Origin: Acidimicrobiia bacterium
GTDB lineage: Bacteria; Actinomycetota; Acidimicrobiia; IMCC26256; PALSA-555
NCBI GenBank assembly: GCA_035948415.1
Contig: DASZJD010000099.1
Location: forward strand, 1 to 37,931
Length of the DNA stretch: 37,931 bases
Direction: 5' to 3'
The notes under the pieces are model-generated. The model saw only the letters and a program-made list of their open reading frames with translations. It had not been told where the DNA came from and did not search any database. Positions 6,976-28,703 of the stretch are shown in pieces. The stretch's first letter is position 1. Every line of letters begins with the position of its first letter. The position numbers were made by a program, and so were the translations under genes.

Positions 6976-9900
6976 TTGGGCGAGTCCGAGTCGTTGGTGA
7001 CCGTGTTGTTCACGGATGTCGAAGGCTCAACCGACGTCTTCGCCCGCTTGGGTGATGCGGGCGGTTGGGAGTTGGTGTCGGCGGTTGAGCGGCTGACTCG
7101 CGAGCGCGTCGCCGAGTTTGGGGGGCGCGTTGTCAAATCGGTCGGCGACGGCGTCTTGGCTGTCTTCGAGTCGGCGCGGCGATCGCTGGCGTGTGCGGTG
7201 GCGATCCAGCAGGGACTTGTCGAGGGGAGCCTCGCGGCTGGTCCTCGTGTTCGGATTGGGATCAATAGTGGCGACGTGCTCGCCGATGGGGAGGACCTGC
7301 AGGGGGCCGCGGTGGCGCTGGCGGCTCGCATTACGGCCGAGGCCGAGGGCGGTCAGATCCTGGTGAGCGATGTGGTGCGCCAGTCGAGTGGTCTGCGGCC
7401 CGGCGTGGGTTTCGTCGATCGGGGTTGGCATCGTCTCAAGGGCTTCCCGGGTGAGGTTCAGCTCTTCGAAGTGACCGAGCATCAGACCGACAGGTCGATC
7501 GTTACGGCCAGAGTGCTGGTGCACGGACAAGCGGAGCCGCGCGCTAGAGGAGTGAGTGCGCGAGAGCAGAGGGTGACCGGTGCCGGGTTCGTAGGCCGCG
7601 CGATCGAGCTCGAGGAGCTCTGCCATGCGTGTGACGAGGCGATCGAAGGCCGAGGTCAGCTGGTCTTGATCGGTGGCGATGCTGGCATCGGGAAGACGCG
7701 ACTGGCTGAAGAGGTGAGGGGCTATGCCAGCGCACGCGGCGCGCAGGTGCTTTGGGCTAGCGCTTGGAGATCGAGTGGGGCGCCGGCGTACTGGCCGTGG
7801 ATCCAGTTGATGCGCGCCTGGGCGGGCTCGGAGCCGTCCGGAGCGGCAGGTGTCGTTCCCAACGCTCTGGGTTCGCTGGTCCCGGAGCTAGCCGTGCCCG
7901 AAGATGGTGAACCGCGGGCTGAGCTGGATGCTGATCGAGCGCGGTTCCAGCTCTTCGATGCGGTGACGTCCTGGTTCGCGGCTGCTGCCGAGAAAAGACC
8001 GCTTGTCCTCGTTCTGGATGATCTGCAATGGGCTGACGCGTCGTCGCTCCTCCTGTTGGGGTTTGTGGCTCGTCAGTTGCAGGGAGCGCGGATGTTGGTG
8101 GTGGGCACGTACCGGGATACGGCTCTCAGCGAGGATGCTGACTTGAGCCACGTGCTGGCTGAGCTGTCGCGAAACGCCACCCGGATCGTCCTCGGCGGTC
8201 TAGGTGAGCCTGAGGTTGCTGAATTGGCAGCGAAGACCGCCGGCGTCGAGGTGGGATCGGGGCTGGTGTCGTCACTGCACGAACGCACCCGCGGCAATCC
8301 GTTCTTTGTGCGTGAGCTAACCCGGCTTCTGGCTGTTCGCGGTCTGCTCGCTGACACAGAAGCGGGGCACGCTGAGGTTCCCTTGCCGGCAGGCGTACGG
8401 GAGGTCCTGGCGGCACGACTCGCCGCCCTTTCGCCGACAACCCGGCAGGTGTTGGCGGCGGCGTCAGTGGTGGGCACGGCGTTCGATCTGACGCTGCTGA
8501 TCAGCATGACGGGACTGGAACAGGACCAGGTCCTGGAGGCGCTCGATGAGGCGATCCACGCACGCGTCGTGCTCTCGCCCAGAGTCGGTGACTACGAGTT
8601 CGCACACGCACTGTTTCGAGACGTGCTCTACGACAGCCACTCGACTTCGGCTCGAGTGCAGCTCCATCGTTTGGTGGGCGAAACGATCGAAGCCCAGTTT
8701 GGCGTCGACCTGCGCAGCCACCTCGCCGAGCTAGCGGACCACTTTCGGCGCGCGGTGCCGTCGGGCACGTTGGAGAAGGCAATTGAGTACTCGCGGCAAG
8801 CTGGGGGTGCCGCGGAGGCCGCCTTCGCTTATGAAGATGCCGTGGTCGACCTCGAAGCCGCGCTGGCACTTATGGAAGAACACAATGCCGAGCCGGCGCG
8901 CCGAGCCGGGTTGCTCGCCGCGCTGGGCCATCTGATGTTCACGGCAGGTCTCGATCGTGCTCGGGGGATCCGCTGCCAGGAGCGAGCACTCGCCATCTAT
9001 GAGGAGTTGGGAGACACGAGGCGGACGGTTCGAATGCACGCCGGGCTCGGGTCCGCCTGGTCGATGTATCCCGATGCCGATGTCGACATCATGGACATTC
9101 CGAAGGCGCTCGTCCATCTTCGCGCCGCCGAGGACATGCTCTCCCAGAACCAGCCAGGCATCGACTTGCAGCTGGTGTACGCCATGCTGTCCAACGCGGC
9201 CTGCTACGGGATGTGCTGCGAGGAGAGTGTGGCCGCGGCCGACCGAGCGGTGGAGGTCACCGAGACCATCGACGAACCACCCGCGGGAGCAGTAGCGACC
9301 AGCCAGCTGACGCTTGGTTTGCGTCAGATCGAGCGAGGCCAGCTCGCGGTCGGCAGGCGGGTCATCGAAGAAGCCTGGGAGACCGCGGACCGGCTTCAGC
9401 ACCCAGTGGCCGCGTTCTACGCCGCGTGGGGGCTCGGCGCTCATTTGGTGTTCTTGCTGGATCCAGCGCCGGCGATGATCGTGTGCCAGCGGGAGCTCGC
9501 CAAAGCCCGCACCGCCCAGGCACCCGGGCAGCGCTGGCATCTCCTCACCTTCCTCGCCATGAGTCACGCCTTGTGTGGTCAGCTCAGCAAGGCGCGGCAC
9601 GTCGTGGAGCCGCTAGCCGGCGACCAATACGTGGAACCGTTGCTCGCACTGTGGTCCGGCGATTGGGACGCTGGACGAGAGGCACTGCTCACCGACCTGG
9701 ACCGGCTGCACCGCACTGGCGACCGCTTCAACGAATGGCGTCAGCTGTACTGGCTCGGACGCCTCGAGCGCAGCGCCGGTAACCACGACGGCGCCGAACG
9801 AGCGCTTCGTGACGGGCTCAGCATCGCGCTCGACGGCCCGATGGTCCTTGCCGAACTGAGCATCCGAGGCGAACTCGCCTTGCTCTGCGACGAGACCGAC

Positions 9901-10890
9901 GAACCCGATGAAGCGCAGACCCACGTCGCCCGCTGCCAGCAGATCCTGGCCGAGGGCCAAGACTGGCGGGGACTCGCCGGCCGGGCGCGCCTGGCGGCTG
10001 GCTCCTGTGCCGCCACCGCCGGCCAATCGGGCGACGCCACGCAAGAATTCCAAGCGGCCCGACGGGCCTTTCGGGAGTGCCGCTTGCCGTTCGACGAAGC
10101 CGAGGTCCTACATCGCTGGGGCGAGCACCTGCACGACACTGGTGATCGCGGCGGCGGCCAGGCCAAGTTCGAGGCCGCCCGAGCGCTGGCGCTCCGCCAC
10201 GACGCCGGCGGTCCATGGGTCGAGCGCGTCCTCGCCGAACCATCGGGTTCTTCCGTCAGGGGCGACACCCTGGATGACACGACGTCGAAGGCGCGGGCTC
10301 GCTCCAGGTCCGCGTCGGTGTTTCGCCAAGAAGGCGAGTACTGGACCGTCGCCTACCACGGTCACGTCGTTCGTCTGCGAGACGCCAAGGGACTTCACCA
10401 TCTCAGCGAACTCCTGACTCGTCCCGGCCACGAGATCCACGTCCTCGAACTCGTCGCCGCCAGAGAAGGTCGGGCGCCCCAACGACGGGCGGCTCCGGAG
10501 CGCCTCCGCGGGGGCGTCGCGGCAGGTAGCGACGCGGGCGAGCTGCTCGACCCCCAGGCCAAGGCCGCCTATCGCCAACGCGTCACCGACCTCGAGGCCG
10601 AGCTCGAAGAAGCCGACGACTTCCACGACCCGGAACGGGCCTCCCGGGCCCGAGCCGAGGTGGACCTGCTCACCCAGCAGCTCGCTGCCGCCGTCGGCCT
10701 CGGCGGCCGCGACCGACGAGCCGCCTCCACGGCTGAACGAGCTCGGGTCAGCGTCACCCTGGCCCTGCGAGCCGCCCTCAAGAAGGTCATGGCGGCACAC
10801 CCTGACCTCGGTGCCCACTTGGCGGACACAGTGCGCACCGGCCAGTACTGCAGCTACCGACCCGGCACTCTGATCACCTGGCAACGCTGA
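6976..10890 (+). CDS. Class III nucleotide-cyclase-like / AAA ATPase / TPR giant regulator (1304 aa)
   Basis: Residues 1-166 form a class III cyclase homology domain. The metal Asps are present (D14 in FTDVEGST, D58 in KSVGDG), as are the purine-side K54 and D107 and the R118 of the AAR motif. The transition-state Asn of the usual VNxAAR motif is Ala114 (VALAAR), so activity is doubtful. A STAND-type ATPase follows: GFVGRAIELEEL near 204, Walker A GGDAGIGKT 233-241, Walker B LVLVLDDL then QWAD 343-353. Helical TPR-like repeats fill about 600-1080. The last 190 residues form a separate module: a possible winged-helix (YWTVAYHGHVVRLRDAKGL, from about 1115), then a charged coiled coil and a conserved GRDRRAAS region. 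Start is TTG at 6976. It is the main cargo between the two tRNA-like repeats. Confidence 0.88.
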   Translation: MGESESLVTVLFTDVEGSTDVFARLGDAGGWELVSAVERLTRERVAEFGGRVVKSVGDGVLAVFESARRSLACAVAIQQGLVEGSLAAGPRVRIGINSGDVLADGEDLQGAAVALAARITAEAEGGQILVSDVVRQSSGLRPGVGFVDRGWHRLKGFPGEVQLFEVTEHQTDRSIVTARVLVHGQAEPRARGVSAREQRVTGAGFVGRAIELEELCHACDEAIEGRGQLVLIGGDAGIGKTRLAEEVRGYASARGAQVLWASAWRSSGAPAYWPWIQLMRAWAGSEPSGAAGVVPNALGSLVPELAVPEDGEPRAELDADRARFQLFDAVTSWFAAAAEKRPLVLVLDDLQWADASSLLLLGFVARQLQGARMLVVGTYRDTALSEDADLSHVLAELSRNATRIVLGGLGEPEVAELAAKTAGVEVGSGLVSSLHERTRGNPFFVRELTRLLAVRGLLADTEAGHAEVPLPAGVREVLAARLAALSPTTRQVLAAASVVGTAFDLTLLISMTGLEQDQVLEALDEAIHARVVLSPRVGDYEFAHALFRDVLYDSHSTSARVQLHRLVGETIEAQFGVDLRSHLAELADHFRRAVPSGTLEKAIEYSRQAGGAAEAAFAYEDAVVDLEAALALMEEHNAEPARRAGLLAALGHLMFTAGLDRARGIRCQERALAIYEELGDTRRTVRMHAGLGSAWSMYPDADVDIMDIPKALVHLRAAEDMLSQNQPGIDLQLVYAMLSNAACYGMCCEESVAAADRAVEVTETIDEPPAGAVATSQLTLGLRQIERGQLAVGRRVIEEAWETADRLQHPVAAFYAAWGLGAHLVFLLDPAPAMIVCQRELAKARTAQAPGQRWHLLTFLAMSHALCGQLSKARHVVEPLAGDQYVEPLLALWSGDWDAGREALLTDLDRLHRTGDRFNEWRQLYWLGRLERSAGNHDGAERALRDGLSIALDGPMVLAELSIRGELALLCDETDEPDEAQTHVARCQQILAEGQDWRGLAGRARLAAGSCAATAGQSGDATQEFQAARRAFRECRLPFDEAEVLHRWGEHLHDTGDRGGGQAKFEAARALALRHDAGGPWVERVLAEPSGSSVRGDTLDDTTSKARARSRSASVFRQEGEYWTVAYHGHVVRLRDAKGLHHLSELLTRPGHEIHVLELVAAREGRAPQRRAAPERLRGGVAAGSDAGELLDPQAKAAYRQRVTDLEAELEEADDFHDPERASRARAEVDLLTQQLAAAVGLGGRDRRAASTAERARVSVTLALRAALKKVMAAHPDLGAHLADTVRTGQYCSYRPGTLITWQR

Positions 10891-19916: not shown

Positions 19917-20633
19917 GTGGAGCCGGTCTGGGGCCTGGGCAAGTCCATTCTCTATCCCACCCTGCGGTTCGGGTTCCGCCTGACCGAGGCGGGCCTCGAC
20001 CACGTGCCGCGGTCCGGGCCCGTGATCCTGGCCAGCAACCACGTCTCGTTCCTCGATCCCCTCTTCCTCCTCTGGATCGGCGATCGGAACCGCCGGAAGG
20101 TTCGGTTCCTCGCCATGGCCGAGCTGTGGGACTCGCCGCTGCTCCGGTTCTTCCTGGTCCACACGGGCCAGATCCCGGTCACGAGGGAGGCGCCCGGCGC
20201 ACGCGCCTCGCTCTCGCACGCCGCCGACGCGCTCGGCGCCGGGGAGTGCCTGGGGGTGTTCCCCGAGGGGCGGATCTCCGAGGACCTCGAGCCGCTGCCG
20301 GGCAAGACGGGGGTCGCCCGGCTCGCGGCGCAGACCGGCGTGCCGGTCGTGCCGGTCGGGGTATGGGGGGGACATCGCCTGTATCCGAAGGGACGACCGC
20401 GACGGTGGCGGGTCGGGGTCGCGGTGGCGCTGGTCGTCGGAGCTCGACTCTCCGTCGACGCCGACGAGGACGTCTTCGACGCGACGGACCGGATCATGGG
20501 GCGCATCACGGACTGCCTCGCGGTGGCCCGCCGCACCTATCCGCAACAGCCCCGCCGCCGAGATGACGGCTGGTGGGTGCGTGGCCCGGACACCGCGGTG
20601 GTGCGCCCGGTGCGGCGCGACGCGCTCGGCTAG
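19917..20633 (+). CDS. 1-acyl-glycerol-3-phosphate acyltransferase-like (PlsC family)
   Basis: The product is 238 residues from GTG 19917, just after a GGGGGGA run. NHVSFLDP gives the H42-x4-D47 catalytic motif, VFPEGRIS at 114-121 the substrate-binding EGR motif, and VPVVPVGVWG the late conserved strand. It would move an acyl chain from acyl-CoA or acyl-ACP to lysophosphatidate or a related acceptor at the membrane. The Arg-rich tail after residue 210 is not part of the fold. Its end lies only 16 bases from the end of the convergent MmpL gene, with no room for a long terminator. Confidence 0.88.
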   Translation: MEPVWGLGKSILYPTLRFGFRLTEAGLDHVPRSGPVILASNHVSFLDPLFLLWIGDRNRRKVRFLAMAELWDSPLLRFFLVHTGQIPVTREAPGARASLSHAADALGAGECLGVFPEGRISEDLEPLPGKTGVARLAAQTGVPVVPVGVWGGHRLYPKGRPRRWRVGVAVALVVGARLSVDADEDVFDATDRIMGRITDCLAVARRTYPQQPRRRDDGWWVRGPDTAVVRPVRRDALG

Positions 20634-20649: not shown

Positions 20650-22896
20650 TCAGCCTCGGGACGGGGTTGGAACGTCGTCGAAGGCGCGGTCGAGGATCTT
20701 GATGGGCTCGTTCTCCCAGATGCCGTACCGCAGGTGCCAGCGTCGCACCGATCGGGGCGACCACCAGTTCGCGCGTCCGGCGAGTCGCATGAACGCGGGA
20801 ACGAGCGTGGCGCGAATCAAGAACGCGTCGACGAGCACCGCGAGGGTGAGCACCAGGCCGAAGAGCTTGACCTGCAGCACCTCGGACGTGGTCAGCCCGA
20901 GGAACACAACGGCGAGGAGGACCGCGGCGGCGGTCACGATGCGACCCGTCTTGCCGAGTCCGACGGCCACGGCGCGCTCGTTGTCGTGATCGACGTCGTA
21001 TTCCTCCTTGATGCGGCTCAGCAGAAAGACCTCGTAGTCCATCGAGAGTCCGAACGCGATGCAGAACACGAGCACCGGGGTGAAGATGTCGACGAAGCCG
21101 GTGGGCGTATAGCCGAGCAGGCCGGCCAGGCGCCCGTCCTGGAAGATGAAGACCATGGCCCCGAAGGTCGCGGTCAGGCTCAGGACGTTGAGCAGCAGCG
21201 CCTTCACCGGCACCAGCAGGCTCCCGGTCATCAGGAAGAGCAGGACGAGAGTCACGAGCGCGATGAGCCCGAGCGCGATCGGCAGGCGGTCGATGATCGA
21301 CTGCTTGGCGTCGACGAACCGCGCCGACTGTCCGGCGACCTCGAACGAGAACGGGGCCCGGGTCGCTCGAACGTCGGCCACGAGCTTCTCGCCGGCCGAG
21401 GAGATCGGCTCGATGCTCGGGACGACGCTGACCCAGGTGTCGTTCGGAGAGGAGGTGTTGAAGAAGCGCTGGGAGAGCGGCGACGGCGTGGCCGGGAGCG
21501 TCGGGCCGCCGTGGAAGTAGAAGCCGGTCGCGGCGTCGACGCGGGCGACACCGGGAAGCATCCGGAGCCGTTCGGCGAAGGCGTTGATCGCTCCGGGGTC
21601 CCGAGTCGGGTTCACGCCGGGGAGCAAGATCCGCAGCGCCGAGCTCTCGCGGCTCGCGAAGTGCTGGCGGATCTGGTCCGTCGCCCGGCGACTGCTCGAC
21701 ACGTCGGGTGGCACCACCCGGTCGTCGACCTGGCCGAGGCGGATGCCGAGGAAGGGGACGGCGAGCGCCAGCAGGACCGCGGTCACCGCGAGCCCGTACG
21801 CGACGGGGTGCCGCATCACGCGTCGGGCCTGGCGGCTCCACGCGGTCTCGCGCCCGGGTGCGCGGACGGCGAAGAGCCGACCCCTCTCGATCCGGGGGCC
21901 GAGGACCACGAGCACCGCCGGGAGCACGACGATGGCCGCCGTGGCCGCGAGGCCGACGACGGCCGCGCCCGCGTAGGCGAAGGACCGGAGATAGACCTGC
22001 GGGAACACGAGGAGCGACAGGAGCGAGATCATCACGGTGCCGGCGCTGAAGGCGACGGTACGACCCGCGGTCTGCATCGAACGGCCGACGGCGACCCGAG
22101 TCGACACGCCGGTGAGGAGCTCCTCCCGGTAGCGAGACACGATGAAGAGCGCGTAGTCGACGGCGAGACCGAGGCCCAACGCGGTGGTGAGGTTCATCGA
22201 GAAGATCGACACCTCGGTCACCGCGGCGAGGGCCCGCAGGGCGACCAGCGTCCCGACGATCGCCAGGACGCCGACGACGAGCGGCAGCAACGCCGCCACC
22301 AGGCTCCCGAACACGAGCACGAGTGCCACCCCGACGATGGGGGTCGTGATGAGCTCGGAGCGCTGGAGGTCCTTCTGCGAGCGGTCGCTGACTTGGTGGT
22401 CGACGACGGCGGTGCCGGTCACGGACGTCCGCACGGACCCGGTGCTCGACGTGAAGAGCGGAGCGAGGCGACCCGCCGCGTGCACCCGCTGGTTCAGGGT
22501 TCCTCGCAGCGCCGCGATGACGAGCGCCGCACGCCCGTTGGTGCTCTTCAGCTGCGGCGGCTCGCCGAGCGTCCAGTACGAGCCGGCCTGGACGACCGCC
22601 GGCTGGTGGGCGAGCCGATCCGTCAGGGCCAGCCCGACCCGGGACACGGACGGGGTGTCGACCGAGTCGACCGCGCTGTCGAGCACCACGACGAAGTCGG
22701 GTTCGCCCGCGGTCGGGAAGCGCCGCACGAGCGCGTTGGCGGCGCGATACGACTCCGACCCCGGCGTGTCGAAGCCGCCCGCCGACAGCTTCGCCGCGAC
22801 ACCCGATCCGAGCGCGGCGGCGATCGCGACGAACAGCACGGCCGCGCCGATCACCCACCAGCGCCCGTGCACCACCCCGTGCGCCAGCCGTCGCAC
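20650..22896 (-). CDS. MmpL-family RND transporter
   Basis: The protein has 748 residues with two RND halves, each of a large extracytoplasmic loop followed by clustered membrane helices. The paired Asp-Tyr motifs of MmpL proton relays are visible: GLGLAVDYALFIVSRYREEL (D247-Y248) and FGLSMDYEVFLLSRIKEEY (D620-Y621). It starts with RRLAHGVVHGRWWVIGAA, the usual cytoplasmic N-terminus before helix 1. Family members export lipids or siderophores using the proton gradient. It is divergent from the cyclic-nucleotide-binding genes, about 80 bases away, and convergent with the acyltransferase. A lipid-export role with PlsC is tempting but only positional. Confidence 0.92.
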   Translation of the reverse strand: MRRLAHGVVHGRWWVIGAAVLFVAIAAALGSGVAAKLSAGGFDTPGSESYRAANALVRRFPTAGEPDFVVVLDSAVDSVDTPSVSRVGLALTDRLAHQPAVVQAGSYWTLGEPPQLKSTNGRAALVIAALRGTLNQRVHAAGRLAPLFTSSTGSVRTSVTGTAVVDHQVSDRSQKDLQRSELITTPIVGVALVLVFGSLVAALLPLVVGVLAIVGTLVALRALAAVTEVSIFSMNLTTALGLGLAVDYALFIVSRYREELLTGVSTRVAVGRSMQTAGRTVAFSAGTVMISLLSLLVFPQVYLRSFAYAGAAVVGLAATAAIVVLPAVLVVLGPRIERGRLFAVRAPGRETAWSRQARRVMRHPVAYGLAVTAVLLALAVPFLGIRLGQVDDRVVPPDVSSSRRATDQIRQHFASRESSALRILLPGVNPTRDPGAINAFAERLRMLPGVARVDAATGFYFHGGPTLPATPSPLSQRFFNTSSPNDTWVSVVPSIEPISSAGEKLVADVRATRAPFSFEVAGQSARFVDAKQSIIDRLPIALGLIALVTLVLLFLMTGSLLVPVKALLLNVLSLTATFGAMVFIFQDGRLAGLLGYTPTGFVDIFTPVLVFCIAFGLSMDYEVFLLSRIKEEYDVDHDNERAVAVGLGKTGRIVTAAAVLLAVVFLGLTTSEVLQVKLFGLVLTLAVLVDAFLIRATLVPAFMRLAGRANWWSPRSVRRWHLRYGIWENEPIKILDRAFDDVPTPSRG

Positions 22897-22974: not shown

Positions 22975-23433
22975 ATGGGGATCTCTTCCCGGCGGGAACT
23001 TGCAGAGCTGCTCGGCGGCGTCGGCCTCTTTGCCCGCTGCACCCGTCGCGAGCGGGCGACGATCGCCCGGCACATGGAGACCGCGCACTTCGGTGCCGAG
23101 ACGACGCTCATCGAGGAGGGGGAGGAAGGCGACGCCTTCTTCCTGATCCTCGAGGGCTCGGCGGTCGTGCTCCGCGGGACCCGAGAGGTTGCGGTCGTCC
23201 GCGCGGGCGCGTACTTCGGCGAGCTGGCCCTCCTCGACGGCGCCACCCGAAGCGCGACGGTTCGGACGACCGAGCCGGCGACGGTGGCGGTGTTGGGGGC
23301 GCGCATGTTCCGGAACCTGCTCCGCGAGTTCCCGGAGCTGACCCTCCAGCTTCTCGCCGGCGTGGCCGCCGAGCTGCGGCGGACCCGTGACGACCTCGAC
23401 GGGGTCATCGTCCCCGGAGCGGCGTCGGGGTGA
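22975..23433 (+). CDS. Stand-alone cyclic-nucleotide-binding domain protein
   Basis: The product is 152 residues from ATG 22975. It is a single CNB (CAP-like) domain: LFARCTRRERATIARHME, IEEGEEGDAFFLILEGSAVV, and the phosphate-binding cassette FGELALLDGATRSATVR with E83 and R92, the residues that hold ribose and phosphate in cAMP receptors. No DNA-binding helix-turn-helix follows; the protein ends after a short helix. It may act as a sensor subunit or a nucleotide sponge. Its stop overlaps the start of the CNB-patatin gene by four bases, indicating joint expression. Confidence 0.88.
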   Translation: MGISSRRELAELLGGVGLFARCTRRERATIARHMETAHFGAETTLIEEGEEGDAFFLILEGSAVVLRGTREVAVVRAGAYFGELALLDGATRSATVRTTEPATVAVLGARMFRNLLREFPELTLQLLAGVAAELRRTRDDLDGVIVPGAASG

Positions 23434-25256
23434 GCCTGGCGACGGACCGCGCCGCGTTGCCCCCCGACGAGCTCGGTGCGCTGCTCGAGGAGAGCGCGGT
23501 GTTCGCCGCCCTCGACGCCGACGCGCGCGCGTTTGTCGCCGCGCGTCTCGAGGCGCAGAACGCTCCGGGCGGAACGGTCCTCGTTCGCCAAGGTGACGCC
23601 GGGGACTGCATGTACCTCGTCGCCATCGGTCGGTTCCGCGTCACCATGACCCGGCCCGACGGGACCGAGGCCCTCGTCGCCGAGATCGGCCGGGGCGAGG
23701 TGGTCGGCGAGCTCGCGCTGATCACGACCGAGCCGCGCACCGCCACCGTCACCGCGGTCCGCGACGGTTGCGTGCTGCGCCTCTCCACCGACGCCTACGC
23801 GGAGCTCGTCCGGCGGCATCCCGACGCGCTCCGGAGCATGTCGACCGAGGTCGTTCGCCGCCTGGTTCGCTCGAGCCGGGGAGGGATCCGGACCAGCCCG
23901 GTGGTCACCATCGCGGTCGTGCCGCTCGCTGAAGACCCGGCCGTGGTCGAGTTCGCGGGTCGCCTCCACGCCTCCCTCGATCGAATCACGGGCCAGGCGG
24001 CGCGCCACGTGTGCCGCGCCAGCCACCCGATCGACGAGCTCGACCGGGCCGGCGCGGACCGTCTGGCCGCGTGGTTCGCCCAGCACGAAGCCGGCTTCGA
24101 GGTCGCGCTCTACGAGACCGACGTGGATCCGACGCCCTGGACCCGGGCCTGCCTCCGGCAGGCCGACCTGATCCTCGTCGTCGGGGGAGACGGCGTCTCG
24201 ACCGAACCGCGCCCGGTCGAGGTCGCCATCGCCGATCGGCGGGCTGGTCTCAGCACCCGAACCGAGCTCGTCCTCGTCCATCGACCGAGCGTGGTCGAGG
24301 CACGGGGCACTCGACGCTGGCTCGAGGGCCGCACCGTCGACCGGCACCACCACGTGCGCAGCGACCGCGACGGAGACTACGACCGCGTCGCCCGGCTGCT
24401 CCTCGGCCGCGGCATCGGCGCGGTCTTCAGCGGGGGCGGCGCCCGGGGCCTCGCCGAGATCGGGGTCTACCGGGCCCTGCTCGAACGAGGGGTCCCGATC
24501 GACGCCACCGGCGGCACGAGCATCGGGTCGATCATCGCCGGTGGCGCGGCGCGCGGGCAGACGCCGGACCAGGTCGCGCTCACCTTGCGCAGGGCGGTCG
24601 TGGACTCGTCGCCGTTCGACGTCACCTTCCCCGTCGTGTCTCTTGCGGCCGGGGTGCGCGTGTCCCGCCACCTCCGCGACGCCGCCGAGGGCCTCCAGCT
24701 CGAGGACCTGTGGCGAAACTTCTTCTGCGTCTCCACGAACCTCAGCCGCGGTGACCTCGAGGTACACCGCACGGGGCCGGCGTGGTACGCGGTGCGGGCG
24801 AGCTTCTCGATCCCGGGCGTGTTCCCGCCCGTTCGGAGCCCGGACGGCGACCTCCTCGTCGACGGGGGGCTGGTCGACAACCTCCCGGTCGACGTCATGC
24901 GAACCGAGCACGCGGGCATCACGATCGTGTCGGTCGACGTCGGCCGCACCCGCGACCTCCGCGCGGGATCGCTCCCCGACACCGGCACGCTGTCGGGATG
25001 GAGGGTCCTGTTCGATCGCCTCGACCCGCGGACGCCGAGCCTCGACACCGCCACGATCGGTCAGATCATGATGCGGCTCACCGAGCTCGGGAACGCCGGC
25101 GGCGAGGATCGCGGTGACCTCTACATCCGGCCACCGGTCGACGCCTTCACCATCGGCGACTTCAAGGCGTTCGACCGGCTGGTCGAGATCGGCTACCAGG
25201 CCGGGATCGAGGCCGTCGACTCGTGGCTCGCGTCCGAGCCCTTGTCGCCCGCGTGA
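23430..25256 (+). CDS. CNB-regulated patatin-like phospholipase (NTE type)
   Basis: The protein has 608 residues from GTG 23430. The CNB domain (about 20-145) has VGELALITTEPRTATV with E94 and R103. A linker domain at 155-325 contains a conserved IAVVPL and LILVVGGDGVS, as in bacterial neuropathy-target-esterase proteins. The patatin domain (328-600) has oxyanion motif SGGGARG (334-340), nucleophile elbow GTSIG with S364, and catalytic D478 in VDGG. It should hydrolyse phospholipid or lysophospholipid esters at the membrane, gated by a cyclic nucleotide. The gene is coupled to the single-CNB gene before it, with the cyclase-ATPase gene 102 bases after. Confidence 0.92.
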   Translation: MSLATDRAALPPDELGALLEESAVFAALDADARAFVAARLEAQNAPGGTVLVRQGDAGDCMYLVAIGRFRVTMTRPDGTEALVAEIGRGEVVGELALITTEPRTATVTAVRDGCVLRLSTDAYAELVRRHPDALRSMSTEVVRRLVRSSRGGIRTSPVVTIAVVPLAEDPAVVEFAGRLHASLDRITGQAARHVCRASHPIDELDRAGADRLAAWFAQHEAGFEVALYETDVDPTPWTRACLRQADLILVVGGDGVSTEPRPVEVAIADRRAGLSTRTELVLVHRPSVVEARGTRRWLEGRTVDRHHHVRSDRDGDYDRVARLLLGRGIGAVFSGGGARGLAEIGVYRALLERGVPIDATGGTSIGSIIAGGAARGQTPDQVALTLRRAVVDSSPFDVTFPVVSLAAGVRVSRHLRDAAEGLQLEDLWRNFFCVSTNLSRGDLEVHRTGPAWYAVRASFSIPGVFPPVRSPDGDLLVDGGLVDNLPVDVMRTEHAGITIVSVDVGRTRDLRAGSLPDTGTLSGWRVLFDRLDPRTPSLDTATIGQIMMRLTELGNAGGEDRGDLYIRPPVDAFTIGDFKAFDRLVEIGYQAGIEAVDSWLASEPLSPA

Positions 25257-25358
25257 GATCGCGGCGAGCCTCATGAGCGGTCGCGACGACGTCATTGACG
25301 GGCACCGTCGGCGTCGCCGGTCGCGGCGCCATCCCGCCGGGGCCCTCGGGGGCGGGCG

Positions 25359-28300
25359 GTGAGCACCGAGACCGTCGCCGTGCTCTTCACCGACCTCGTC
25401 GGGTCGACCGAGCTGCTGACCCGGGTCGGGGAGGAGCACGCCGAGGAGCTCCGACGCGAGCACTTCCGCGTGCTGCGGACCGCCCTGGCCGAGCGTGACG
25501 GCCGCGAGGTGAAGAACCTCGGTGACGGGATCATGGCCGTCTTCGCCAACGCGTCGGCGGCCGTGGCCTGCGCGGTGCGGATGCAGCAGCGGATCGACGC
25601 CCGCAACCGCCGGATCAACGTCGAGCCGCTCGCCATCAAGATCGGGGTGGGCTCGGGCGAGTGCGACGTCGAGGACGGCGACTACTTCGGTCCGCCGGTC
25701 GTCGAAGCCGCCCGGCTGTGCGCGCAGGCCACCGGGGGGCAGATCCTCGCCACCGAGCTGGTCCGGGCCCTCGCGGGCACCCGGGGCGGGTACACGTTCG
25801 AGCCGCTGGGCCCGGTCGCGCTGAAGGGGTTCCCCGATCCGGTGCCGGTCGTCGCGGTGGCGTGGTCGCCGATTCCCCTCGACGCCGAGGGCAGCACGAT
25901 CGTCCCGCTGCCGCTCCGGCTGGAGGCGGCGAGCGCCCGCAGCTTCATCGGCCGGACCCACGAGCGGGCCAGCCTCGCCGAGGCGCTGAAGCACGCCGAC
26001 GCCTCCGCCCAGCGCCAGGTGGTGCTCATCTCCGGCGAGGCGGGGATCGGCAAGACCTACCTCGCGGCCGAGGTGGCCCGGGAGGCCTACGCCGGTGGGG
26101 CGGTCGTGCTCTACGGACGCTGCGACGAGGAGCTCGGCATCCCGTACCAGCCGTGGGCCGAGGCGCTCCGCCACCTCGTGCTCCACGCGTCCGACGAGCT
26201 CCTGGCCCAACACGTCACCGCTCGGGGTGGCGAGCTGGCCCGACTCGTGCCGGAGCTCACCAGCCGAGTCGACGCGCTGCCCGAGCCGCGGTCCGGCGAT
26301 CCCGAGACCGAGCGCTACCTGCTCTTCGGCGCGGTGCTGGGACTCCTCGAGGCCGTCTCGACCGGCTCACCGATCGTCATCGTCCTCGACGACCTCCACT
26401 GGGCCGACAAGCCGACCCTCCTCCTGCTCCGGCACGTCGTCGCCACCCCCGGGACCCTCCGCGTGCTCATGATCGGCACGTACCGGGCGACCGACCTCGG
26501 CACCGGGCACCCGCTGACCGACGTGCTCGCGGCCCTCCACCGCGAGGACGGCATCGAGCGCGTCGAGCTGGCCGGGCTCGGCGATCGCGAGGTGGTCGAC
26601 CTCGTCGAGACCGCGGTCGGGCACGACCTCGATCGGGGAGGAGTCGCGCTCGCCCACGCGCTGTACCGGGAGACCGACGGCAACCCCTTCTTCACCAACG
26701 AGATCCTCCGCCACCTCGTCGAGACCGGCGCGCTCGCCCAGGACGCCGACGGCGTCTCGGTCGCGGCCATCGACTTCAGCGGCGGTGGGTTGCCCTCCAG
26801 CGCCCGAGAGGTCATCGGTCGACGGGTGGCGCGCCTCGGCCAGGGGGCGGAGCAGGTGCTGCGCGCCGCCGCCGTCATGGGCCGCGACTTCGATCTCGCC
26901 CTCCTCGGCCAGGTGACCGACGTCGGCGAAGACGCGCTCCTCGACGTCATGGACGCGGCCTCGGCCAGCGCGCTCATCAACGAGGTCGCCGACGTGCCCG
27001 ACCGCTTCACGTTCTCCCACGCCCTCGTCGAGCACACCCTCTACGAGGACCTGAGCGGCAGTCGTCGGGCCCGCCTACACCGACGGGTGGCCGAGGCACT
27101 GGAAGGCTCCTGCGGCGACGACCCCGGTGAGCGCGTGAGCGAGCTCGCCTACCACTGGGCCCGAGCCACGGCGCCGAAGGAGCCCGTGAAGGCGATCGAG
27201 TACGCGCGGCAGGCGGGCGACCGCGCTCTCGCGAGCCTGGCGCCCGACGACGCGCTGCGCTGGTACCGACAGGCGCTGGAGCTGCTCGACGAGCACGACC
27301 CGGACGACGTCCGCGCTCGCTGCGCGCTGCTCGTGCGCGTCGGGGACGCCGCCCGGCAAGCCGGCGACCCGTCCTACCGGGAGACGCTGCTGGACGCGGC
27401 CCGACAGGCGCAGGCCGCCGAGGCCATGGACCTGGTCGTCCAGGCCGCGCTCGCGAACAGCCGGGGCTTCTTCAGCGCCGTCGGCCACCCCGACGAGGAG
27501 CGGATCTCCGTGCTCGAGTCCGCCCTCGGGGCCATCGGCGAGCTGCGGTCGGCCGAGCAGGCTCGACTCCTGGCCCTCCTCGCGCAGGAGCTCGTGCCGA
27601 CCGGGAACCTGGCCCGGCGGCGCCAGCTGAGCGACCACGCCGTCGAGATCGCACGCGAGGTCGGCGACGCCAAGACCCTGCTCGAGGTCCTGAACCTGCG
27701 CTTCAACGCCATCCTCGCCCCCGAGACGCTCGACGAGCGGCTGGCGGTCTCGGCCGAGGCGGTGCAGCTGGCCGAGGGGGCCGGCGACCCCGTCGCCCGC
27801 CACTTCGCGGAGACGTTCCGCGTCTTCGCGGCGCTCGACGCCGGCGACCGCGACGAGCTCGACCGCGCCGCCGCGACCGCGATCGAGCTGGCTGACGCGG
27901 TGGGGCAGCCCGTGCCCCGGTGGGTCGCGACCTGGGAGCGGGCGCTCCTCGCCTGGCTCGACGGGGACCTCGAGCGAACGGAGCAGCACGCCACCGACGC
28001 GCTGACGCTCGGCTTCGAATCCGGCCAACCGGACGCCGCCCTCGTCCCCGGGGTGATCCTCCTGACCCTGCGCTGGGCCCAGGGCCGAGCCGACGAGCTC
28101 GAGGGGGTCCTCCTGCAGTTCGTCGCCGACACGCCCGGGCTCACCGCGCTCAAGGCCGCCGTCGGTGTCCTCTACTCCGAGTACGACCGCCTCGACGAGG
28201 CCCGGGAGACCCTCGACGCGAAGGTCGCCGAGGGCTTCGAGAATCACCGCGACGACGCCTTCGGCCTCGCGGCCCTCGTCCTGTGGAGCTACGTGATCGC

Positions 28301-28703
28301 CGACGTCGGCCACGTCGTGGCCGCGAGGCTGCTCCTCCCGGACCTCCTGCCGCGCCGCGACCAGTTCGGCGGCGCCGCCGTCGTCGTCATGGGATCGGTC
28401 GCGACGGCCATCGGCGCCCTGCAGACCGTCCTCGGTGACTTCGCCGCCGCCGAGGACGCGCTGCAGCAAGGCATCGCCGCGTCCGAGCGCCTCCGCGCGC
28501 CGTACCTGCTCGCGCTGACCCAGTGCGCGTTCGCCCGGCTCTTGCTTCGCCGCGACGAGCGCGGTGACCGGGATCGTGCCCAGCGCGCGCTCGACGACGC
28601 CACCGAGCTGGCACATCGGTTCGGGTTCGAGGGCGTCAAACGACGCGTCCACCGACTGGCGCCGTCGGCCTCCCCGTCGACGGGGGACGCGACCGCGACC
28701 TGA
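25359..28703 (+). CDS. Class III nucleotide-cyclase-like / AAA ATPase / TPR regulator (1114 aa)
   Basis: It starts at GTG 25359. Residues 1-165 are the cyclase domain: D12 in FTDLVGST, K52 and D56 in VKNLGDG, D108 in GDYFG, R119 in EAARL. The Asn expected before AAR is Val115 (PVVEAAR), so catalysis is uncertain. FIGRTHERASL leads into a STAND-type ATPase with Walker A GEAGIGKT (226-233) and Walker B IVIVLDDLHWAD (339-350). RETDGNPFFTNEI and AHALVEHTLYEDL are typical of this group. TPR-like helices fill from about 600 to the end. It lacks the extra C-terminal module of the 6976-10890 protein. It lies 102 bases after the CNB-phospholipase gene, on the same strand, so the set may be one operon. 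Confidence 0.9.
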   Translation: MSTETVAVLFTDLVGSTELLTRVGEEHAEELRREHFRVLRTALAERDGREVKNLGDGIMAVFANASAAVACAVRMQQRIDARNRRINVEPLAIKIGVGSGECDVEDGDYFGPPVVEAARLCAQATGGQILATELVRALAGTRGGYTFEPLGPVALKGFPDPVPVVAVAWSPIPLDAEGSTIVPLPLRLEAASARSFIGRTHERASLAEALKHADASAQRQVVLISGEAGIGKTYLAAEVAREAYAGGAVVLYGRCDEELGIPYQPWAEALRHLVLHASDELLAQHVTARGGELARLVPELTSRVDALPEPRSGDPETERYLLFGAVLGLLEAVSTGSPIVIVLDDLHWADKPTLLLLRHVVATPGTLRVLMIGTYRATDLGTGHPLTDVLAALHREDGIERVELAGLGDREVVDLVETAVGHDLDRGGVALAHALYRETDGNPFFTNEILRHLVETGALAQDADGVSVAAIDFSGGGLPSSAREVIGRRVARLGQGAEQVLRAAAVMGRDFDLALLGQVTDVGEDALLDVMDAASASALINEVADVPDRFTFSHALVEHTLYEDLSGSRRARLHRRVAEALEGSCGDDPGERVSELAYHWARATAPKEPVKAIEYARQAGDRALASLAPDDALRWYRQALELLDEHDPDDVRARCALLVRVGDAARQAGDPSYRETLLDAARQAQAAEAMDLVVQAALANSRGFFSAVGHPDEERISVLESALGAIGELRSAEQARLLALLAQELVPTGNLARRRQLSDHAVEIAREVGDAKTLLEVLNLRFNAILAPETLDERLAVSAEAVQLAEGAGDPVARHFAETFRVFAALDAGDRDELDRAAATAIELADAVGQPVPRWVATWERALLAWLDGDLERTEQHATDALTLGFESGQPDAALVPGVILLTLRWAQGRADELEGVLLQFVADTPGLTALKAAVGVLYSEYDRLDEARETLDAKVAEGFENHRDDAFGLAALVLWSYVIADVGHVVAARLLLPDLLPRRDQFGGAAVVVMGSVATAIGALQTVLGDFAAAEDALQQGIAASERLRAPYLLALTQCAFARLLLRRDERGDRDRAQRALDDATELAHRFGFEGVKRRVHRLAPSASPSTGDATAT

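Follow-up and report, generated by a model that had tools for sequence, protein, structure and literature searches.

A putative cyclic-nucleotide-responsive phospholipid unit beside a cyclase-ATPase gene in an Acidimicrobiia bacterium

Why should a gene for a nucleotidyl cyclase lie next to a gene for a lipase with a cyclic-nucleotide-binding (CNB) domain? The question is raised by three consecutive genes on the forward strand of contig DASZJD010000099.1 from an Acidimicrobiia bacterium (assembly GCA_035948415.1), of which a stretch of 37,931 nucleotides, here called the window, was analyzed. The genes encode a stand-alone CNB protein (gene 1, 22975..23433), a CNB-patatin protein (gene 2, 23430..25256), and a class III nucleotidyl cyclase whose cyclase domain is followed by an AAA_16 (STAND/MalT-like) ATPase and by an extended C-terminal part (gene 3, 25359..28703). 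They had been compared, in an earlier sequence-only reading, with two antiphage systems, Pycsar (pyrimidine cyclase system for antiphage resistance) and CBASS (cyclic oligonucleotide-based antiphage signalling system). In our best reading, genes 1 and 2 would instead form a unit responsive to cyclic nucleoside monophosphates (cNMPs) together with neighbouring genes for an MMPL-family transporter and a PlsC-type acyltransferase, and would serve housekeeping lipid control. We lean slightly towards the view that genes 1 and 2 read the signal in a cNMP circuit that remodels membrane phospholipids, and that gene 3 is a recruited local cyclase. The basis for this at the sequence level consists of the domains and their intact residues, the MMPL/CNB/NTE linkage, a natural PlsC fusion, and the recurrent adjacency of NTE (neuropathy target esterase) and cyclase genes.

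The phospholipase and its CNB partner

Gene 2 (608 amino acids, GTG start) matches three Pfam families, each well above its own cut-off: a CNB domain (PF00027, cNMP_binding; amino acids 45-130, 23562..23819, 77 bits) with the pocket glutamate and arginine present, an NTE_Ploop domain (PF24179; amino acids 160-313, 23907..24368, 93 bits against a cut-off of 27), for which the genome search recovered the identical stretch, and a patatin domain (PF01734; amino acids 332-489, 24423..24896, 94 bits), all on the forward strand. NTE_Ploop is the hallmark domain of the NTE family, and because of its presence gene 2 is assigned to this family and not to CapV, the patatin of CBASS; judged by its domains, it appears to be a full NTE-type phospholipase, a bacterial form of neuropathy target esterase. 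The catalytic set comprises S364 in GTSIG (codon 24519-24521), D478 in DGG (codon 24861-24863) and a glycine-rich oxyanion motif, GGGARG, at 335, so that the dyad previously described as intact is indeed so by residue positions. With the NTE/PNPLA6/SWS proteins gene 2 shares three identical domains in identical order, the Ser/Asp dyad and the cNMP pocket residues; it differs from them by a single CNB domain instead of three and by the lack of an evident N-terminal membrane helix, and also in that it overlaps a second CNB gene and is adjoined by MMPL and cyclase genes. Eukaryotic members of the family hydrolyse phosphatidylcholine and lysophosphatidylcholine, and in HeLa cells cyclic AMP (cAMP) raises the level and activity of NTE (PMC9025805).

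Gene 1 (152 amino acids, ATG start; PF00027, 64 bits) contains no effector or DNA-binding domain according to the Pfam search. The cyclic-nucleotide pocket motif of gene 1 is GELALLDGATRSATV and that of gene 2 is GELALITTEPRTATV, and both domains retain the glutamate and the arginine, which in CNB pockets hold the ribose and the phosphate. Among 62 CNB domains of CNB-patatins in the fetched loci, 54 have kept both residues, and those that have not are mostly second, degenerate CNB copies. This retention indicates that the pocket is under selection, for which cyclic-nucleotide binding would be the simplest explanation. When the contigs of the source genome were searched with gene 2, only distant CNB matches were obtained.

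The layout reported earlier, with three genes on the same strand, a 4-base overlap between genes 1 and 2 and a gap of 102 bases before gene 3, was confirmed by the coordinates. Long antisense open reading frames (ORFs) cover all three genes, but a codon-usage model picked the sense genes; the antisense frames are mirror ORFs, which are commonplace in high-GC DNA. An Rfam search of the window gave no matches.

The conserved MMPL/CNB/NTE unit and its lipid neighbours

Besides the NTE_Ploop domain, the sequence-only reading had overlooked a second cyclase-ATPase within the window and two genes just upstream of gene 1. The first of these two encodes an MMPL-family lipid transporter (20650..22896, reverse strand; PF03176, 243 bits), which is divergent from gene 1 with 78 bp between them; the second, for the PlsC-type acyltransferase (19917..20633, forward strand; PF01553, 103 bits), lies on the far side of the MMPL gene from genes 1 and 2.

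In relatives the conserved unit is the divergent MMPL gene followed by the CNB gene 1 and the NTE gene 2. It was found in four genomes from three genera and two families, namely in the window (family f1) and in G048, G043 and G050 of family f12, whose MMPL proteins are 58-63% identical to that of the window and are likewise encoded divergently beside CNB-NTE. A gene 1 orthologue precedes NTE in all three f12 genomes, directly so in G048 and G043, and in G048 the two genes overlap by 4 bases as they do in the window; between the window and f12, gene 1 (57-66% identity) is more similar than gene 2 (52-53%). Across the order, gene 2 orthologues are 49-63% identical. NTE, as defined by PF24179, occurs in 8/58 genomes of the order, to which a protein search added a divergent truncated copy in G053, and in 35/395 genomes of the class sample. 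When the order to which G126 belongs was searched separately, the loci obtained were identical, and this part of the class is therefore near exhausted.

The lipid connection extends to the acyltransferase. In G001, a genome of the same genus, gene 1 has decayed to the C-terminal half of the CNB domain (L064 4611-5036) upstream of NTE, and a homologue 63% identical to the window PlsC is encoded 438 bp downstream of NTE (L064 7297-8022), adjoining a beta-ketoacyl synthase gene. In family f15 an acyltransferase domain about 50% identical to the window PlsC forms the N-terminus of CNB-patatin proteins, a natural PlsC acyltransferase-CNB-patatin fusion (L073 144-3140; L075 7940-10267). We regard this joining of an acyltransferase, a CNB domain and a predicted acyl hydrolase in one chain as a strong indication that phospholipids are deacylated and reacylated, putatively under cNMP control. 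Other CNB proteins adjoining NTE in relatives are an ABC ATPase-CNB, an ABC exporter-CNB and a FeeM-type acyl transferase-CNB protein; NDH2-CNB together with ALDH-CNB was also found in this position.

The cyclase gene, its pairing with NTE and competing readings

Gene 3 (1114 amino acids, GTG start) had been described as a class III cyclase fused to a STAND-like ATPase, and its Pfam matches bear this out: a cyclase domain (Guanylate_cyc, PF00211; amino acids 3-157, 25365..25829, 51 bits) is followed by an AAA_16 domain (PF13191; amino acids 196-372, 25944..26474, 98 bits), with Walker A GEAGIGKT at 226 and Walker B VLDDLHW at 342, both domains again on the forward strand. The C-terminal approximately 740 residues matched no Pfam family.

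A search of the fetched neighbourhoods with a cyclase profile detected a class III cyclase at most 1.5 kb from NTE in 8/37 NTE-bearing genomes of the class (the source genome of the window, G045, G053, G126, G227, G233, G254 and G258), which is a lower bound as contig ends cut some loci. From 492 PF00211 matches in the 121.8 Mb of these 37 genomes only 0.45 such neighbours are expected; across the class, adjacency thus exceeds chance about 18-fold, with a Poisson P of ~3e-8, or of ~0.01 if only three cyclase architectures are counted as independent. The first architecture is the single cyclase homology domain (CHD)-AAA_16 arrangement of the window. The second, in families f24, f30 and f38, is a soluble-adenylyl-cyclase-like tandem CHD-AAA_16-TPR protein (L110 4408-8229, with equivalents in L109, L111, L116 and L119) that has ADCY10 structures among its best solved matches and splits its catalytic residues, with the metal aspartate and the lysine in C1 and the N/R residues in C2. 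The third is a 585-amino-acid protein of G045, TPR-S-like at its N-terminus and with the cyclase at its C-terminal end. Gene 3, which has a single CHD and carries the full set of homodimer residues on one chain, is not of the ADCY10 type. The cyclase genes of G227 and G254 are convergent with NTE, adjacent nonetheless. As controls, no cyclase was found beside approximately 13 CNB-less patatins, a single one beside approximately 9 other CNB genes, and no CNB or patatin gene beside 30 unselected cyclases.

These data suggest that relatives have repeatedly paired an NTE-type phospholipase with differing cyclases, and gene 3 would probably be the local cAMP source of the lipid unit. With respect to the conservation of the three-gene order, for which a neighbourhood comparison had been proposed, the exact order was found, among the genomes searched, in the source genome only, which counts against the earlier reading as far as this order is concerned, whereas the gene 1-gene 2-MMPL unit and the NTE-cyclase pairing both recur. 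Beyond the class, a wider phylum sample contributed seven more NTE loci, in whose visible genes no cyclase was found; for rhizobial and Methylobacterium megaplasmid relatives, where annotation exists, no adjoining cyclase is annotated, and in a Paracoccus pAMI5 relative a cyclase lies three genes from NTE. We found no description of the NTE-cyclase linkage in the literature searched, a search that did not reach most subscription journals.

Several observations nevertheless weigh against a dedicated role for gene 3. Cyclase adjacency needs 7-8 changes on the NTE tree; it is therefore labile, with frequent gain and loss, and the genomes are not independent. Gene 3 itself adjoins NTE in the source genome alone among the genomes searched: in f12 and in the other f1 relatives with NTE it does not stand beside NTE, and the NTE locus of the same-genus G001 is without an adjacent cyclase or MMPL gene. 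Because the gene 3 family has 12 or more copies in the source genome, its position next to NTE could be due to chance. The best relatives of gene 3 are 37-48% identical and scattered over genomes, and at 0/15 other gene 3 homologue loci was an NTE or patatin gene present within 1.5 kb. In addition, mammalian NTE CNB domains are reported as dispensable for some functions (PMC9319352).

Much of this also favours the alternative that survives best, namely that the true unit is MMPL/gene 1/gene 2 (with PlsC) answering the cell-wide cAMP pool, and that gene 3 is an unrelated downstream paralogue. It agrees with the rest of the window's NTE clade, in which gene 3 is not beside NTE and a cyclase, of another type, is found in G045 alone, and also with the many gene 3 paralogues per genome. 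One more of these is present in the window itself: the second class III cyclase-AAA_16 ATPase (6997-10890, forward strand; 1297 amino acids) has a K-D-A-R active site and shares 37% identity with gene 3 across 682 amino acids. However, the excess of NTE-cyclase adjacency and its occurrence with three cyclase architectures speak against this alternative, and gene 3 is on the same strand as gene 2, separated by 102 bp in which a terminator scan, a method that is weak in high-GC DNA, found none. We consider it possible but on the doubtful side. A further AAA_16/NB-ARC-like ATPase is encoded at 1-724 on the reverse strand, as a fragment running off the contig end.

The active site of gene 3 has the metal aspartates D12 and D56, the ATP-type residues K52 and D108, and R119, whereas V115 occupies the transition-state site where asparagine is usual. 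Its nearest solved relative is Ma1120 of Mycobacterium avium (E 3e-22), an active adenylyl cyclase despite an alanine at the asparagine site, in which a change of this alanine to asparagine lowered activity and in which the lysine and aspartate pair specifies ATP (PMC4215837). Gene 3 and Ma1120 are alike in these two ATP residues, in a non-asparagine transition-state residue and in the retained arginine; gene 3 differs in having valine in place of alanine and in its additional AAA_16 ATPase and long C-terminal region. Adenylyl cyclase activity of gene 3 is thus plausible. That the domain is instead dead or uses another nucleotide, serving oligomerisation or nucleotide sensing while gene 2 is regulated otherwise, is suggested by V115, but with the Ma1120 precedent and all remaining catalytic residues in place we consider it very unlikely.

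The analogy with antiphage systems is not supported, as gene 2 belongs to the NTE family and neither a cGAS/DncV-like nucleotidyltransferase (CD-NTase) nor a TIR or transmembrane effector was found. With CBASS/CapV the locus would share a nucleotide-switched patatin, but no CD-NTase was found in genes 1-3 or in the other window genes that were scanned, and the patatin is an NTE-family protein with a CNB domain; as a CapV-type CBASS lipase gene 2 was rejected, scoring 20 bits with NF041079 (CBASS_lipase) against a cut-off of 200. With Pycsar (PycC plus PycTIR or PycTM) it would share a cyclase beside a CNB-gated effector, but differs in the NTE phospholipase as effector, in the ATP-type cyclase residues and in being without defence context. 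Pycsar effectors are CNB domains joined to a TIR or transmembrane domain (PMC11224242); gene 2, whose effector domain is a patatin, was therefore rejected as one. In the PADLOC scan gene 3 reached just 28 bits with a PycC model, and the matches to genes 1-3 reflect nothing beyond the CNB, cyclase or patatin domains that they have in common with defence proteins. The earlier remark that defence neighbours are lacking agrees with our PADLOC scan of the neighbours, which are lipid and metabolic genes; an ABC ATPase among them gave generic ATPase matches, and neither a specific match nor a mobile-element context was found. Relatives of gene 2 were absent from viral contigs, and phages yielded only short RssA-like patatin matches. 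The protein family, the neighbouring genes and the absence of gene 2 from viral sequence thus all disfavour a defence role. Housekeeping lipid control, which had been put forward as equally possible, is retained and preferred, but not as an equal, given the lipid neighbours and the NTE family. The sole context hinting at a conflict system is that of G045 (L069 7842-15398), where a TIR-WD40 gene lies upstream of the paired NTE and TPR-S-cyclase genes and is divergent from them. Although this context, the matching parts list and a STAND-type ATPase that could act as sensor speak for Pycsar-like abortive infection, in which the ATPase-cyclase would sense phage, make a cNMP and unleash the patatin on the membrane, we consider it very unlikely on the evidence above.

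A possible circuit and its meaning

In the reading that we prefer, with genes 1 and 2 as reader and gene 3 as local cyclase, a rising cNMP, most likely cAMP, would be bound by gene 2 through its CNB domain. As a result the patatin domain, which would deacylate phospholipids or lysophospholipids, would become more or less active, or would gain or lose access to the membrane. Gene 1 may be a second cNMP sensor, with either gene 2 or the divergent MMPL protein as its target in trans; PlsC would re-acylate the lysolipid, and MMPL would move lipid. Gene 3, as a recently recruited, ATPase-regulated adenylate cyclase, possibly co-transcribed with genes 1 and 2, would supply the signal nearby in response to a trigger perceived by its ATPase.

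Such a circuit might also include an eraser. A metallo-beta-lactamase (MBL)-fold hydrolase with an HxHxDH motif adjoins CNB-patatin in 12 genomes, including most of those with a tandem-CHD cyclase (L110 10156-10977; L109 7525-8352; L111 10339-11175 and 7140-7979; further loci in L114, L116, L120, L124, L126, L073, L075 and L076), and is present in one or two copies in nearly all genomes searched; the single copy of the source genome is at C85, away from genes 1-3. Each of the 12 members that were aligned gave matches to an RNase Z model and to a cyclic-nucleotide phosphodiesterase model, both far below cut-off. Among the sequence matches in the PDB is 6kns, which we take to be YhfI. The MBL phosphodiesterases Apyc1 and YhfI cleave cNMPs (PMC9117128), and it is possible that the MBL-fold hydrolase is a cNMP phosphodiesterase too, and as such a candidate eraser. 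Just past the MBL gene a gene for 400-464 amino acids lies on the opposite strand in L109, L110 (11015-12271), L111, L114, L116 and L120; that of L110, the sole one checked, belongs to the LtrA family of Pfam.

More tentatively, the loci may thus represent chromosomal writer-reader-eraser cassettes, in which an NTE-type phospholipase, as reader, is gated by the cNMP of a class III cyclase encoded nearby and the signal is removed by an MBL-fold phosphodiesterase. On several occasions the reader would have acquired a different cyclase partner (of the single-CHD STAND, soluble-adenylyl-cyclase or TPR-S type). If true, this would be a bacterial second-messenger pathway acting directly on membrane phospholipids and not on transcription, and a counterpart of the cAMP control of NTE in animals, where nucleotide sensing by the CNB domains of the family is unsettled and NTE is a disease gene. 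As the likely nucleotide source, the phospholipase and the lipid partners are neighbours, the pocket residues show clear selection, and the proteins are small and soluble-looking, the question can be put to a direct test. Some of the many cyclases in these bacteria would, moreover, be given a defined output other than transcription.

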